A DNA stretch of 64,000 nucleotides. Origin: Xenorhabdus eapokensis. GTDB taxonomy: Bacteria > Pseudomonadota > Gammaproteobacteria > Enterobacterales > Enterobacteriaceae. Positions 3,135-63,991 of this stretch are shown in pieces. Location of the stretch: NCBI RefSeq assembly GCF_001908105.1, contig NZ_MKGQ01000001.1:284990-348989 (forward strand), given 5' to 3'. The position numbers and the translations under genes are program-made. Positions within the stretch are counted from its first letter, which is position 1. Each line of letters starts with the position of its first letter. The notes below the pieces were generated by a model. That model searched no databases. It saw only the letters and a program-made list of their open reading frames with translations, and was not told the DNA's origin.

Positions 3135-3500
<366 letters not shown>

Positions 3501-40797: not shown

Positions 40798-41439
40798 ATG
40801 TTTACAGGTATCGTTCAGGGAAAAGCACCAATAGTTGCCATTGATGAAAAAATGCATTTTCGAACTCATATTGTTAAATTTCCGGCTGAATTATTACCTG
40901 GAATTGAAACGGGCGCTTCTGTTTCCCACAACGGTTGCTGCCTGACTGTAACTAAGATCGATGGTGATTTAGTCAGTTTTGATTTAATGAAAGAAACATT
41001 GCGCCTGACCAACCTTGGTGAACTGAGGGTAGGTGATTTAGTCAATCTGGAAAGGGCGGCTAAATTTGGTGATGAAATTGGTGGACATTTGATGTCCGGT
41101 CATGTTATTACGACAGCAGAAATTGCCAAGATCTTCACTTCTGAAAATAACCATGAAATATGGTTTCGAATTCACGATAAACAATTAATGAAATATATTC
41201 TGCATAAAGGATTTGTTGGTATTGACGGAATTAGCCTAACAATTGGAGATGTGGTCAATAATCGTTTCTGTGTTCATTTAATTCCAGAAACATTGGAGCG
41301 TACAACTTTGGGTAAAAAACGTTTGGGTGAAAAGGTTAATATTGAAATTGATCCACAAACTCAAGCGGTTGTAGATACCGTTGAACGGGTTGTGGCTCAG
41401 CAAGCACAAGAAAAACAATGGCTACAGACGGAAGAATAA
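40798..41439 (+). CDS. ribE: riboflavin synthase alpha chain
   Basis: Joins two 6,7-dimethyl-8-ribityllumazine molecules to give riboflavin (named ribC or ribE in E. coli). From the ATG at 40798 there are 213 residues, the E. coli length, in two similar lumazine-binding halves: [15 protein letters not shown] with [10 protein letters not shown], and GHLMSGHV with [16 protein letters not shown] lies 5 bases upstream; an ATG 15 bases earlier adds MKEVP and was rejected. Confidence 0.95.
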
Positions 41440-41472
41440 TAAAGAAATATTTCTATATTCGATAAAACGCGA

Positions 41473-41501
41473 AAGCTACAGAAATGGTGTTTCTGTAGCT
41501 T
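41473..41501. terminator. hairpin between convergent ribE and cfa
   Basis: AAGCTACAGAAA and TTTCTGTAGCTT make a perfect 12-bp stem with a 5-base loop. T content after it is low on the plus strand and moderate on the minus strand. It probably serves as a shared end for both genes. Confidence 0.6.
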
Positions 41502-41522
41502 GGGGAAATTTCGTTATGGGAG

Positions 41523-42674
41523 CTATCTAGGTACTCTTAATCCTTTTTCGATACCTCGTGGACTGAACACTATCTGCCATAACTGTATATCTCTTGCACG
41601 GAATGCACCAGCACAGGCATTCAGATAATAACTAAACATTCGCTTGAAGCGTGGGCTGTAGTTATGCTCTATTTCATGCCAACTGGCAGTAAACCGCTCA
41701 TACCATGCCATTAATGTCCGGTCATAATCGGCCCCAAAGTTGTGCCAATCTTCCATGACAAACTTTCCGGCAGTTGCTTTAGCAATTTTGGCGATTGAGG
41801 GTAAGCAGCCGTTGGGGAAAATATATTTGCTGATCCATGCATCGGAACCTAATTTATCAATATTGGAACCGATGGAGTGGAGCAGGAACAAACCATCCGG
41901 TTTCAAATTCTTTTTCACTATATTGAAATAATTATCATAATTTTTAGGGCCAACGTGCTCAAACATGCCGACGGATACAACGCGATCAAACTGAAGGTTA
42001 AGGTTGCGGTAATCTTCAAGGATAATTTTTACATTCAGATCCTTACAGCGTTCTTGTGCATATTTCTGTTGTTCGGCTGAAATCGTTACCCCTGTGACAG
42101 ATACACCGTAATTTTCTGCCGCATAGGCAGCCAAACCTCCCCATCCACAACCAATATCCAATAAAGTCATGCCTGGAGACAGTTGTAGTTTTTCGCAAAC
42201 CAGGCGCAGCTTATGAGATTGTGCTTCTTCCAGTGTGTTGGCATCTTTCCAATAACCACAAGAATATTGCATGTTAGGATCAAGCATACGAGTAAACAGA
42301 TCATTACCTAAATTATAATGTTCCTCACCTACAATCCAGGCGCGTTTGGGAGATTGTAAATTAAATATACGAGAGGTAATTATCTTGAAGATGTCTTTGG
42401 TATTTTTGGGAATACAATGCTCTAAGCCGACCCGTAATATTTTATGAAAGAAAATATCAAGGCGATCACATTCCCACCAGCCATCCATATAACTCTCACC
42501 CAGACCCAAGGAACCCTCTTTCAATACGCGTTTATAGAAGTCAGGGTTTTTAACACGTATGTCGAAAGGGCGCTTGCCATTGATATCAATATCAGCTTCC
42601 TGGAGCAATTCGTGGGCAATCCTATGCCAAGGATTAGTGATTGTTTTTTTACCTTCAACGAAAGATGAACTCAT
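41523..42674 (-). CDS. cfa: cyclopropane-fatty-acyl-phospholipid synthase
   Basis: SAM-dependent enzyme that adds a methylene bridge to unsaturated acyl chains in membrane lipids, protecting cells in stationary phase and acid. The 383 residues (E. coli 382) contain the SAM site LLDIGCGWGGLAAYAAENYG and FDRVVSVGMFEHVGPKNYD. GGAGAG precedes the ATG by about 5 bases. Confidence 0.96.
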   Translation of the reverse strand: MSSSFVEGKKTITNPWHRIAHELLQEADIDINGKRPFDIRVKNPDFYKRVLKEGSLGLGESYMDGWWECDRLDIFFHKILRVGLEHCIPKNTKDIFKIITSRIFNLQSPKRAWIVGEEHYNLGNDLFTRMLDPNMQYSCGYWKDANTLEEAQSHKLRLVCEKLQLSPGMTLLDIGCGWGGLAAYAAENYGVSVTGVTISAEQQKYAQERCKDLNVKIILEDYRNLNLQFDRVVSVGMFEHVGPKNYDNYFNIVKKNLKPDGLFLLHSIGSNIDKLGSDAWISKYIFPNGCLPSIAKIAKATAGKFVMEDWHNFGADYDRTLMAWYERFTASWHEIEHNYSPRFKRMFSYYLNACAGAFRARDIQLWQIVFSPRGIEKGLRVPR

Positions 42675-53074: not shown

Positions 53075-53728
53075 ATGTCAGAAAATAATGAAACAGATAT
53101 CGCAGAACTGCGCCGTGAATATATACGTGGTGGCTTAAGGCGAAAAAATCTTACTGAAGAACCGATTGAACTCTTTGAATGTTGGTTAAAGCAGGCTTGT
53201 GAAGCGAAGCTCATCGATCCGACGGCAATGTGTATTGCCACAGTAGATGAACATGGGCAACCTTATCAACGTATTGTTCTATTAAAACATTTTGATGCTA
53301 ATAACCTGATATTCTATACCAATCTTGGCAGCCGTAAGGCAAAACATCTGGCCCAGAATAACCGGATCAGTCTCCATTTTCCTTGGCATCAATTGGAACG
53401 ACAGGTCAGTTTTCTCGGCAGAGCTGAGCGTTTATCTCCGGTTGAGGTTGTAAAATATTTTCATAGCCGTCCCAAGGATAGCCAAATTGCAGCTTGGGCT
53501 TCCCAGCAATCCTCAAAGATTTCAACCAGAAGCATTTTGGAAGGGAAATTTTTGGAGTTGAAACAGAAATTCCAAAATGGTGAAGTACCTCTTCCAGGTT
53601 TTTGGGGGGGATTCAAGGTCAAATTTGACTCAGTCGAATTCTGGCAGGGCGGTGCCCATCGTCTTCATGATCGTTTCCTGTATCAGCGTGAAGGTGATAA
53701 GTGGAATGTTGAACGTTTGGCGCCTTAA
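53075..53728 (+). CDS. pdxH: pyridoxine/pyridoxamine 5'-phosphate oxidase
   Basis: FMN enzyme that makes pyridoxal 5'-phosphate. The 217 residues (E. coli 218) include [20 protein letters not shown] and [13 protein letters not shown] (FMN site), and the C-terminal [18 protein letters not shown] run of seven G lies at 53604-53610. With tyrS and pdxY downstream, this is the E. coli gene order. Confidence 0.95.
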
Positions 53729-53945: not shown

Positions 53946-53995
53946 GAGAAGAGTATAGAGATATAAGCAAAGTATACAAACCGATGGAGTCATTA

Positions 53996-55267
53996 ATGTC
54001 TAGCAATAACCTGATTAAACAACTGCAAGAGCGGGGCCTTGTTGCCCAGGTAACGGATGAAGAGGCGTTAGCTGAGAGACTGGCGCAAGGTCCGGTTTCT
54101 CTCTATTGTGGCTTCGATCCTACCGCTGACAGCTTGCATTTGGGCCATCTGGTTCCCTTGCTGTGTTTAAAACGATTCCAACTTGCTGGTCACAAACCTA
54201 TTGCGTTGGTTGGTGGGGCGACAGGTTTGATTGGTGATCCAAGCTTTAAAGCAACGGAACGCAAATTGAACACAGAAGAAACGGTCGGAGAATGGGTTGA
54301 AAAAATTCGTAACCAGGTTTCCCCGTTCCTTAGTTTTGAGGGTGCAAATGGTGCAGAATTAGCCAATAACTACGATTGGTTTGGTCAAATGGATGTGTTG
54401 ACTTTCCTGCGTGATATCGGTAAGCACTTCTCCGTCAATCAGATGATCAACAAAGAAGCAGTAAAACAACGCCTTAACCGTGATGATGTTGGTATTTCGT
54501 ACACTGAGTTTTCTTATAACCTATTGCAGTCTTATGACTTTGCAAATTTGAATAGAAAATATGGTGTTGAATTACAAATTGGTGGTTCAGACCAATGGGG
54601 TAATATTACTTCAGGTATCGATTTGACTCGTCGCTTGAACCAGAAACAAGTGTTTGGCATGACCGTACCGCTGATCACCAAATCAGACGGAACTAAATTT
54701 GGTAAAACAGAAGGTGGTGCAGTTTGGTTGGATCCGAAGAGAACCAGCCCATACAAATTTTACCAGTTCTGGATTAACACAGCAGATGCAGATGTTTACC
54801 GTTTCCTGAAATTCTTTACTTTCATGAGCAGTGAAGAAATTAATGCACTGGAAGAAGAAGATAAAAACAGTGGTAAAGCTCCACGTGCTCAATATGTATT
54901 AGCAGAACAAGTTACGGGTCTGGTGCATGGCGAAAAAGGTCTTGCGGCGGCGAAGCGTATTACTGAGAGTTTATTCTCAGGCGCTATTGCTGATTTAACC
55001 GAAGAAGATTTCGCTCAACTGGCACAAGATGGCATGCCAGCCATTGAACTTGAAAAAGGTACTGATCTGCAACAAGCATTGGTCACAGCTGAATTTGTTC
55101 CTTCCCGTGGGCAGGCGCGTACTATGATTAGCTCTAATGCGGTTTCCATCAACGGTGAAAAACAGTCCGAACCTATGTATGTATTTACGGATAGTGATTG
55201 TTTATTTGGGCGTTATAGCTTATTACGCCGTGGTAAAAAACATTATTGCCTTATCAATTGGAAGTAA
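53996..55267 (+). CDS. tyrS: tyrosine--tRNA ligase
   Basis: Charges tRNA-Tyr. From the ATG at 53996 there are 423 residues (E. coli 424), beginning [16 protein letters not shown]. The class I HIGH motif is HLGHLVP, the tyrosine pocket is in [13 protein letters not shown], the KMSKS loop is KFGKT, and an S4-like RNA-binding domain ends the protein ([20 protein letters not shown]). GGAG at 53986-53989 precedes the chosen ATG; an ATG at 53984 overlaps that ribosome site and was rejected. Confidence 0.95.
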
Positions 55268-55372: not shown

Positions 55373-56251
55373 ATGAATAATGTTCTTTCAATTCAGTCTC
55401 ATGTTGTCTTTGGTCATGCAGGAAACAGTGCGGCTGTTTTTCCGATGCGTCGTATGGGGGTGAACGTATGGGCATTAAATACGGTTCAATTTTCAAACCA
55501 TACCCAATATCCTCAATGGCGTGGTTGTGTAATGCCGCCGGAACATTTGACTGAAATTGTGCGGGGAATTGGTGACATTAATAAACTCGCATCCTGTAAT
55601 GCAATCCTGAGTGGTTATATTGGTTCTGCGGAGCAGGGAAATTATATCCTTGATATCGTGAAGCAGGTTAAAAAAGCTAACCCTGATGCCTGGTATTTCT
55701 GTGACCCTGTAATGGGACATCCAGAAAAAGGATGTATAGTTGCGCCAGGGGTTGCTGAATTTTTGTGCGATAATGCACTACCTGCCAGTGATATTATTGC
55801 ACCTAATTTGTTGGAACTTGAAACATTAACTATGCGGAAAATTGGCAGTGTAGAACAAGCTATATCCGCCGCGCGTGAGTTATGTGAAAAAGGTCCCAAG
55901 ATTGTCTTGGTCAAACATTTGAGCCGTGCAGGTTATCAGGCCGATTGTTTTGAAATGCTTTTGGTAACGAAAGAACATAGTTGGCATGTTAGCCGCCCAC
56001 TAATTGATACAGGATCGCGTCAACCTGTTGGTGTTGGAGATTTAACGAGTGGTTTGTTTCTCGCCAATCTATTGAAAAACCCATCTTTGGCAAATGAAAC
56101 ATTGCAAGCTGCTTTAGAACATGTTGTGGCTGCGGTCTACTAAGTCATGTTGGCGACCCAACAGAGTGAGGAATATGAATTACAGATTGTTGCCGCACAA
56201 GATAAGATAGTCGCTCCAGACCATCAATTTCATGCTGTCAGAATAGACTAA
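55373..56251 (+). pseudogene. pdxY: pyridoxal kinase PdxY, interrupted by an in-frame stop
   Basis: PdxY phosphorylates pyridoxal in vitamin B6 salvage. The open frame from the ATG at 55373 runs 256 codons and stops at TAA 56141-56143, directly after EHVVAAVY. E. coli PdxY (287 residues) continues there with EIMVTTKAMQEYELQVVAAQ. In the same frame after the TAA the sequence encodes VMLATQQSEEYELQIVAAQ and 16 more residues, ending at a TAA at 56249-56251, for 292 codons in all. One G-to-T change (GAA to TAA) would explain this. The ATP/substrate motif GVGDLTSG is upstream and intact. The short form may retain activity; sequencing error or read-through are alternatives. Confidence 0.85.
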
Positions 56252-56255
56252 TAAC

Positions 56256-56299
56256 AAAAAACAGTCCCACCCATAATGTTATGGACGGGACTGTTTTTA
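56256..56299. terminator. bidirectional terminator between pdxY and fabI
   Basis: ACAGTCCC (56261-56268) and GGGACTGT (56287-56294) pair, flanked by five or more A before and T after, so it can act on both strands. It lies just past the distal pdxY stop at 56251, consistent with the ancestral gene end. Confidence 0.8.
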
Positions 56300-56313: not shown

Positions 56314-57105
56314 TTATGGTTTTAACTCTAACTCATTCATGGCAGCGATGCTGAAACCACCATCAACATGCAAGATCTCACCGCTAATACCACCAGCCAG
56401 ATCTGAGCACAAGAAGGCAGCCGCATTACCGACATCTTCTGTTGTCACAGTGCGGCGAATAGGTGTAACCGCTTCACAGTGTGCCAGCATCTTACGGAAG
56501 TCTTTGATACCAGAAGCAGCCAGAGTACGGATTGGGCCCGCAGAGATACCATTAACACGAACACCTTCAGCGCCCATCGCATTTGCCATATAACGCACGT
56601 TTGCTTCCAGAGATGCTTTCGCCAGACCCATGACGTTATAGTTAGGAATTGCACGCTCTGCACCCAAATAACTCAAGGTGAGCAGGGCAGAACCCGGATT
56701 CAACATATTACGGCAGACTTTTGCCATTGCGACAAAGCTGTATGCACTGATGTCGTGCGCAATTTTGAAGCCTTCACGGTTAACAGCATTAACATAATCA
56801 CCATCAAGCTGGTCAGCCGGTGCGTAACCGATAGAGTGAACAAAACCATCGAATTTAGGCCATACTTTACCTAATTCAACGAACAATGCGTCAATACTTT
56901 CATCTTCAGCCACGTCACATGGCAGAACGATATCTGAATTCAGTGATGCGGCGAATTCTTCGACACGAGGTTTCAGCTTGTCATTTTGGTAAGTGAAAGC
57001 CAGCTCTGCTCCTTGATCGTGCATTGCCTTGGCAATTCCATAAGCAATAGACAGTTTGCTGGCGACGCCAGTAATGAGAATGCGCTTGCCGGTCATGAAA
57101 CCCAT
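56314..57105 (-). CDS. fabI: enoyl-[acyl-carrier-protein] reductase (NADH)
   Basis: Last reduction in each fatty-acid elongation cycle; target of triclosan. From the ATG at 57105 there are 263 residues (E. coli 262). It is an SDR fold with [20 protein letters not shown] (NAD loop), [20 protein letters not shown] (catalytic Tyr and Lys) and [17 protein letters not shown] at the end. AAGGATA precedes the ATG; an upstream start adding ten residues was rejected. Confidence 0.96.
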
Positions 57106-57311
57106 AGCAGTATCCTTATTGTTCTTTATGATCAAAATTGTTCTTTGTGATCAAACACCAAAAGTCATGGCAAAACAGAAATAATTAATAGTTAACCATA
57201 ACTACGGTATTTATGGTGAATAAACGGGGATGATTCTACCATGCCGGAGGAAAATGTGGTGAGTTTCCCATTCTGTTCCGATCAGTGATTAAAATACATC
57301 CAAGAAAAACA

Positions 57312-62968: not shown

Positions 62969-63991
62969 CTACTCTATCTTGCCATTAACATCAATACGGT
63001 ATTTTTTGATTAACCCGCGGAACTGGTGGTAAGTCAAATTAAGTTTGTCAGCGGCCTTTTTCTGATTAAATTGGCTTTCTGTCAAAGCCTGTATGAGTAA
63101 ACTCTTTTCGCTGTCGTTTTGCCACTGCCTTAAATCAACAGGTAATTTGGGAAGGACGTTATTGCTCATCTCGCTCTCTGTGGATGAAGGAGCAGATTGC
63201 TGTGAGAGTGAAAAGGGGTTGATGATGATCGTATTTAATTCATTTTCGCTATTACCATTTTTACTATTACTATGCCGGTAAATAGAGCGTTCGATAACAT
63301 TTTTGAGTTCGCGAACATTTCCGGGCCAGTGATAGGAAAGCAACTGTTGTTTGGCTTCGTCAGTAAATCCGGGGAAAAATGGCAGAGCCAACTCACGGCA
63401 CATCTGAATCGCAAAATTCTGTGCCAGTAACATAATATCCTGTTGTCGCTGGCGTAATGGTGGGATATGAACCACGTCAAACGCGAGCCTGTCGAGCAAA
63501 TCAGCCCTGAATTTCCCGCAGGCAGCCATGACAGGTAAATCTTCGTTGGTGGCACAGATCAAACGTACATCAACTTGTAATGACTGAGTGCCGCCTACAC
63601 GCTCCAGGTGACCATATTCAATAACACGCAGTAATTTCTCCTGTACCTGCATAGGGGCAGTGGCGAGTTCGTCAAGAAATAAGGTTCCGCCATCAGCCCG
63701 TTCAAAGCGCCCCTGGTGTTTTGAACGGGCACCCGTGAACGCCCCAGCTTCATGACCAAATAATTCTGAGTCAAGCAGATTTTCATTGAGTGCTGCACAG
63801 TTCAGGGAAATGAAAGGGCCTTGCCAACGTGGAGAAAGATAGTGTAAACGTCGGGCAATTAACTCCTTACCGGTTCCTCGTTCTCCCAGAACTAAAACCG
63901 GTTTATTCAATTTCGCTAATGCGGAGACTTGTTCCAAAATTTCAATAAAACAGTTTGCTTCACCTAATAGGTTGTCAATAAACTGGGACAT
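62969..63991 (-). CDS. pspF: psp operon transcriptional activator PspF
   Basis: Sigma-54 enhancer-binding AAA+ protein that activates the phage-shock (membrane stress) operon and lacks a regulatory domain. The 340 residues (about 325-330 in E. coli) show Walker A GERGTGKE, the sigma-54-contacting GAFTGA loop in ELFGHEAGAFTGARSKHQ, Walker B GGTLFLDEL, arginine fingers in FRADLLDRLAF, and a C-terminal helix-turn-helix NQKKAADKLNLTYHQFRGLI. The frame is complete. The pspA operon is expected just past the window end on the other strand. It converges on ryhB. Confidence 0.95.
   Translation of the reverse strand: MSQFIDNLLGEANCFIEILEQVSALAKLNKPVLVLGERGTGKELIARRLHYLSPRWQGPFISLNCAALNENLLDSELFGHEAGAFTGARSKHQGRFERADGGTLFLDELATAPMQVQEKLLRVIEYGHLERVGGTQSLQVDVRLICATNEDLPVMAACGKFRADLLDRLAFDVVHIPPLRQRQQDIMLLAQNFAIQMCRELALPFFPGFTDEAKQQLLSYHWPGNVRELKNVIERSIYRHSNSKNGNSENELNTIIINPFSLSQQSAPSSTESEMSNNVLPKLPVDLRQWQNDSEKSLLIQALTESQFNQKKAADKLNLTYHQFRGLIKKYRIDVNGKIE

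Follow-up and report, generated by a model that had tools for sequence, protein, structure and literature searches.

The window analysed here is a 64,000-nucleotide stretch of the Xenorhabdus eapokensis genome, in which pdxY lies downstream of pdxH and tyrS and converges with a fabI-like gene (Table 1). The names of the two genes that flank pdxY are presumptive, tyrS being assigned from its sequence and the gene order and the fabI-like gene from its sequence. The pdxY frame opens with ATG at 55373 and breaks off at TAA 56141-56143 directly after EHVVAAVY, so that 256 residues are encoded and 36 residues of PdxY are removed; coordinates, frame and codons are as an earlier preliminary description of this DNA had given them.

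Table 1. Genes and sequence features around pdxY (positions within the window).
Feature	Position	Strand	Basis or remark
pdxH, pyridoxine/pyridoxamine 5'-phosphate oxidase, intact	53075..53728	+	TIGR00558, 263 bits (cut-off 180)
tyrS (presumed), intact, between pdxH and pdxY	53984..55267	+	ORF reading
pdxY, shortened frame, 256 codons and stop	55373..56143	+	ORF reading; NF004398 match
In-frame TAA, codon 257	56141..56143	+	all 30 other genus genomes have a glutamate codon here
Four window-only transversions (56141, 56154, 56158, 56162)	56141..56162		branch substitution scan
Continuation of the frame for 35 codons, aligning with the C-terminal part of PdxY; translated only in the event of read-through or restart	56144..56248	+	
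Perfect hairpin of 6 bp around a 4-base loop; the substitutions at 56158 and 56162 complete it	56148..56163		
Second TAA	56249..56251	+	same end codon in 29 of 30 full-length relatives; G010 runs on
Terminator-like hairpin, 19 pairs, between convergent pdxY and fabI	56257..56298	minus strand only in the scan	hairpin scan
fabI-like enoyl-ACP reductase (presumed), intact, convergent with pdxY	56314..57135	-	ORF reading

The pdxY frame and its severed tail

The 256-residue form scores 406.1 bits against the PdxY model NF004398, above the curated cut-off of 292, so its match to PdxY is no chance likeness. The match is not full length, covering positions 2-251 of the 287 in the profile against 2-286 in an intact relative (P0001). 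The Pfam kinase match is barely altered by the truncation (60.8 versus 64.1 bits) and is almost complete without the tail. Upstream of the stop, the window retains both Cys121, a residue that an excerpt of PMC11995724 assigns to pyridoxal binding, and the GVGD motif (220-223), all in invariant or nearly invariant columns.

Downstream of the stop, the frame runs on for 35 codons corresponding to the C-terminal end of PdxY, without a further stop or indel, to a second TAA that is followed by a terminator-like hairpin, as the preliminary description had held. The arms of this hairpin (AAAAA...TTTTT) would suit termination in both directions. In an alignment of 26 homologues, our choice from 120 listed matches, 12 columns from codon 257 onwards are invariant, and the tail of the window keeps all 11 that follow the stop. 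Relative to intact orthologues the pdxY frame is interrupted, as expected of a pseudogene.

The stop among Xenorhabdus relatives

A pdxY gene is present in all 30 other genomes of the genus and is free of internal stops in 29. None of the 30 shares the stop of the window, and all carry one identical glutamate codon at the site, in agreement with the proposed single-base change from GAA to TAA. The comparison of related pdxY genes bears out that the gene, intact in other respects, has undergone a nonsense change specific to this lineage, and a stop shared with relatives is rejected. The best named protein-level matches are those of X. thuongxuanensis (97%) and X. kozodoii (96%). Identity across the window, computed for four genomes, is 93.5% for X. 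thuongxuanensis (G023), 93.0% for G001, 91.6% for G011 and 88.5% for G016, values at which the window is probably of another species than these four.

The one other interrupted copy is that of X. hominickii (genome G024, locus L047), which has TAG at codon 98 (about 3292-3294 of the locus) with the rest of the frame open. Codon 98 specifies glutamine in the other 21 of the 22 named loci that were compared at this position, out of 80. The stop of X. hominickii is independent of that in the window, and it is the sole early pdxY stop in the 80 named loci. None of the 80 ends at codon 257, and no homologue of 256 residues appears among the 120 matches listed from a database clustered at 90% identity, a clustering that could hide one. 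In-frame stops occur in 1 of 30 pdxY orthologues versus 0 of 30 for each of anmK, a MATE transporter gene and pdxH; a parallel loss of pdxY beyond chance is not shown by these counts. Among publications on Xenorhabdus with pdxY or pyridoxal kinase, judged by title and the start of the abstract, none concerns the gene in the window.

The surroundings of pdxY vary within the genus. In X. indica (L048, 3988-6744) and X. budapestensis (L049, 4153-6735), the gene that immediately follows pdxY is a large one encoding AMP-binding and chorismate-binding domains, and the 3-kb flank in which fabI was expected did not yield it. Genome G010 has a second, partial pdxY (L156, 7312-7803), which corresponds to codons 130-292 of the query and lies some 58 kb away from the main copy, and the gene after it resembles, by eye, the large gene of X. 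indica, which suggests that a block was inserted with duplication of the 3' part of pdxY. In X. koppenhoeferi (L052), the 3 kb that precede pdxY contain neither tyrS nor pdxH; a gene with a peptide-synthetase-type condensation domain is found there (2-1012). The surroundings of pdxY may be an insertion place for biosynthetic clusters.

Sequence quality and a cluster of transversions at the stop

A stop found in one assembly could be a sequencing or assembly error, in which case pdxY would be intact in the strain and a bad consensus would account for the stop, perhaps along with three neighbouring transversions. A five-genome comparison of the region covered 84 gene groups with a full-length member in three or more of the genomes. 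It took in frames that end inside the window, and so not the one of about 340 residues at 62969-63991; one relative gene falls past the end of the window, and window-absent frames of 81-116 residues were taken as chance frames. Among comparable conserved genes of at least 130 residues, pdxY is the only broken gene in the window. Elsewhere in the comparison, G001 has only a 515-residue frame (joined coordinates 40987-42534) of a gene that reaches about 686 residues in the window and three relatives.

Substitutions are likewise ordinary. Over 42 genes the window branch has 138 replacement and 563 silent changes, and the X. thuongxuanensis branch 111 and 472; these genes are what was used of 45 groups found, the other three overlapping with longer groups, and G001 was apparently paired with a divergent copy in two of the 42. 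Since only pdxY is broken and the replacement and silent counts are close to those of X. thuongxuanensis, the sequence of the window is not generally poor, and poor sequence throughout is rejected. One pseudogene in 64 kb is also usual: an excerpt of PMC4079199 gives 38, 45, 58 and 99 pseudogenes for four Xenorhabdus chromosomes, about one per 45-100 kb by our arithmetic.

The window has 1,173 substitutions of its own in 53,256 compared bases, 291 of which are transversions, and the stop is the first member of the only cluster of four transversions within 22 bases on this lineage, as a bad stretch could give. G001 and X. thuongxuanensis have one such cluster each, elsewhere. The preliminary description made no mention of the cluster at the stop. 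The restriction to transversions was chosen after the site was seen, and the site stands out only among them, because window-only substitutions of any type are commonly clustered (four within 22 bases at 24 merged places, five at 4). With 291 transversions placed uniformly, such a cluster arises somewhere in 4.6% of trials; the probability of three more transversions within 21 bases of a given one is 0.0017, a figure conditional on having picked the stop. Against an error stand the unbroken state of every other comparable conserved gene of at least 130 residues, the ordinary substitutions elsewhere and the lack, by eye, of a homopolymer at the site. We regard an error as the likeliest of the alternatives, though itself unlikely.

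The cluster also fits a hairpin-templated or other multi-base mutation. Two of the four changes lengthen the longest stem from 3 to 6 pairs, the stop itself lying outside the hairpin. A stem of at least 6 pairs appears in 2.2% of trials with four randomly placed transversions and in 25% of those in which the four sites were kept and the transversions drawn at random. A conversion event with some other Xenorhabdus sequence as donor is not supported: the 21-base variant stretch has no match at up to 2 mismatches in the 30 genomes of the genus. In addition, a 24-base stretch has no exact match in 158 loci, and a 19-base piece has no second copy in the window at up to 3 mismatches.

Selection before and after the stop, and its age

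Measured against the unanimous state of G001, X. thuongxuanensis and G011, the window branch has 2 replacement and 9 silent changes in codons 1-256, and 3 replacement and 1 silent in codons 258-292. A count on the pdxY tree gives the window tip 6 replacement and 14 silent changes upstream of the stop, and 4 replacement changes and 1 silent change downstream. How old, then, is the stop? The 4 tail replacements match the expectation for an unconstrained tail along the entire branch, 4.1 (0.65-0.97 under constraint), which speaks against youth, and tests of the surplus with the strict count give P values of 0.002 to 0.07. Compared with the share of tail changes in the genus, however, the tree count gives P = 0.145; the intact tips G017, G010 and G020 have tail shares like or above that of the window, and two of the four replacements sit in the transversion cluster. 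As proof of an older stop the surplus is not supported. For youth speak the uninterrupted tail frame, the invariant columns kept in it and the four replacements themselves, all of which, relative to X. thuongxuanensis, are residues found in homologues (chance 0.02 without constraint). On balance a young stop is favoured, though not decisively. The preliminary description had called the downstream codons undamaged and had offered a recent event as one of its explanations: the first holds for the frame and the conserved sites and fails at the four replacements, while the second is favoured with mixed counts of replacement and silent changes.

The constraint seen in codons 1-256 is also what a working enzyme of 256 residues would leave, if this lineage could do without the last 36 residues and selection acted on the short form. 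Such an enzyme would have Cys121, GVGD and an almost complete Pfam kinase match. A young stop, however, would give the identical substitution pattern, and the invariant columns at and after codon 257 and the lack of any such end among the 80 named loci and the 120 listed homologues point the other way, which makes a working short PdxY improbable. Very unlikely is a combined version, in which a complex hairpin-templated event cut the sole pyridoxal kinase of the genus and what is left of it, 256 residues either by themselves or together with a tail peptide that has its own start, remains an active kinase, the C-terminal block being not strictly needed. Very unlikely, too, is a full-length or two-piece PdxY through read-through of the stop, suggested in the preliminary description, or through restart at an ATG 3 bases past the stop codon: the frame of the tail is uninterrupted and its conserved residues are retained, but the stop is found in the window lineage and in none of the 30 others, the local fold (as DNA) is unremarkable (z -0.43), UAA followed by G is a strong termination context, and no ribosome-binding sequence is visible by eye before the ATG.

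Pyridoxal kinases and vitamin B6 salvage in the genus

In Xenorhabdus, the PdxK model is above its cut-off in 0 of 30 genomes (1 of 14 control genomes), and a full-length TIGR00687 kinase occurs once in each of the 30, at the place of pdxY; the X. hominickii copy carries its stop, and G010 has an extra, partial copy. Judged from these profile matches, PdxY is the only recognised pyridoxal kinase of the genus, a point that is new here, and it is probably the only pyridoxal kinase of the window lineage, the absence of PdxK there being deduced from relatives. We say "recognised" because weaker matches to the kinase family exist, namely ThiD-sized frames and a 297-residue frame at 44-48 bits in G019 and G045, and because, according to an excerpt of PMC9997740, B6 forms can be substrates of certain ThiD-like kinases; the weaker matches might thus have some pyridoxal kinase activity.

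According to extracts from the literature on E. coli, PdxK takes all three unphosphorylated B6 forms and PdxY takes pyridoxal (PMC10202323), and growth of a pdxY deletion in LB does not differ significantly from that of the wild type (PMC11995724), but this species also possesses PdxK. The preliminary description had supposed that B6 salvage may be altered; it is probably affected, and perhaps more than was first supposed, because PdxK is above its cut-off in none of the 30 congeners. PdxJ is found in all 30 and pdxH is intact in the window, so that, if this genome is like its congeners, pyridoxal 5'-phosphate (PLP) would still be made de novo.

Interpretation

We favour, with a probability of roughly 0.56, a real nonsense allele, probably a young one, that is carried by the pdxY gene of a single Xenorhabdus lineage and disables pyridoxal salvage. 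The stop was perhaps born in one complex, possibly hairpin-templated mutation, as the cluster with its completed hairpin hints. The ribosome would terminate at codon 257, and the product, lacking the conserved C-terminal block, would be unstable or weakly active, since the conservation of the tail suggests a role in folding or activity that the protein cannot do without. The cell would then convert pyridoxal back to PLP poorly or not at all, PdxY being the only recognised pyridoxal kinase in congeners, and PLP would continue to come from de novo synthesis via PdxJ and PdxH. The constrained appearance of codons 1-256, as a working short enzyme would show it, argues against loss of function.

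Most likely, the event is an ordinary recent loss of function of a known kind. By itself it merely adds to the several dozen pseudogenes per Xenorhabdus chromosome that the excerpt of PMC4079199 indicates. If real, it is a natural knock-out of pyridoxal salvage, without a PdxK backup judging by 30 relatives, and it would serve as a test on a small scale, set up by nature, of how far salvage counts in a cell that obtains PLP by de novo synthesis.

Comparison with known systems

Quasipalindrome (hairpin-templated) mutation occurs in bacteria. The window resembles it in that two substitutions make an imperfect hairpin perfect, and differs in that such a mutation accounts for only two of the four clustered changes. 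With PdxY as represented by NF004398 and the solved chains 3pzs, 1vi9 and 1td2, the last of which we take to be the E. coli protein, the window shares the sequence family, Cys121 and GVGD, whereas its form is without the last 36 residues; the gene order pdxH-tyrS-pdxY is presumably also that of E. coli. X. hominickii likewise has a single in-frame stop with the remaining frame open, but its TAG at codon 98 removes two thirds of the protein. A further likeness is to Serratia symbiotica SAp, an insect-associated relative in which pdxY is lost: an excerpt of PMC3471834 lists the gene among its pseudogenes. There pdxY is one of 24 listed symbiont pseudogenes, whereas here a single gene is broken in a window that is otherwise intact.
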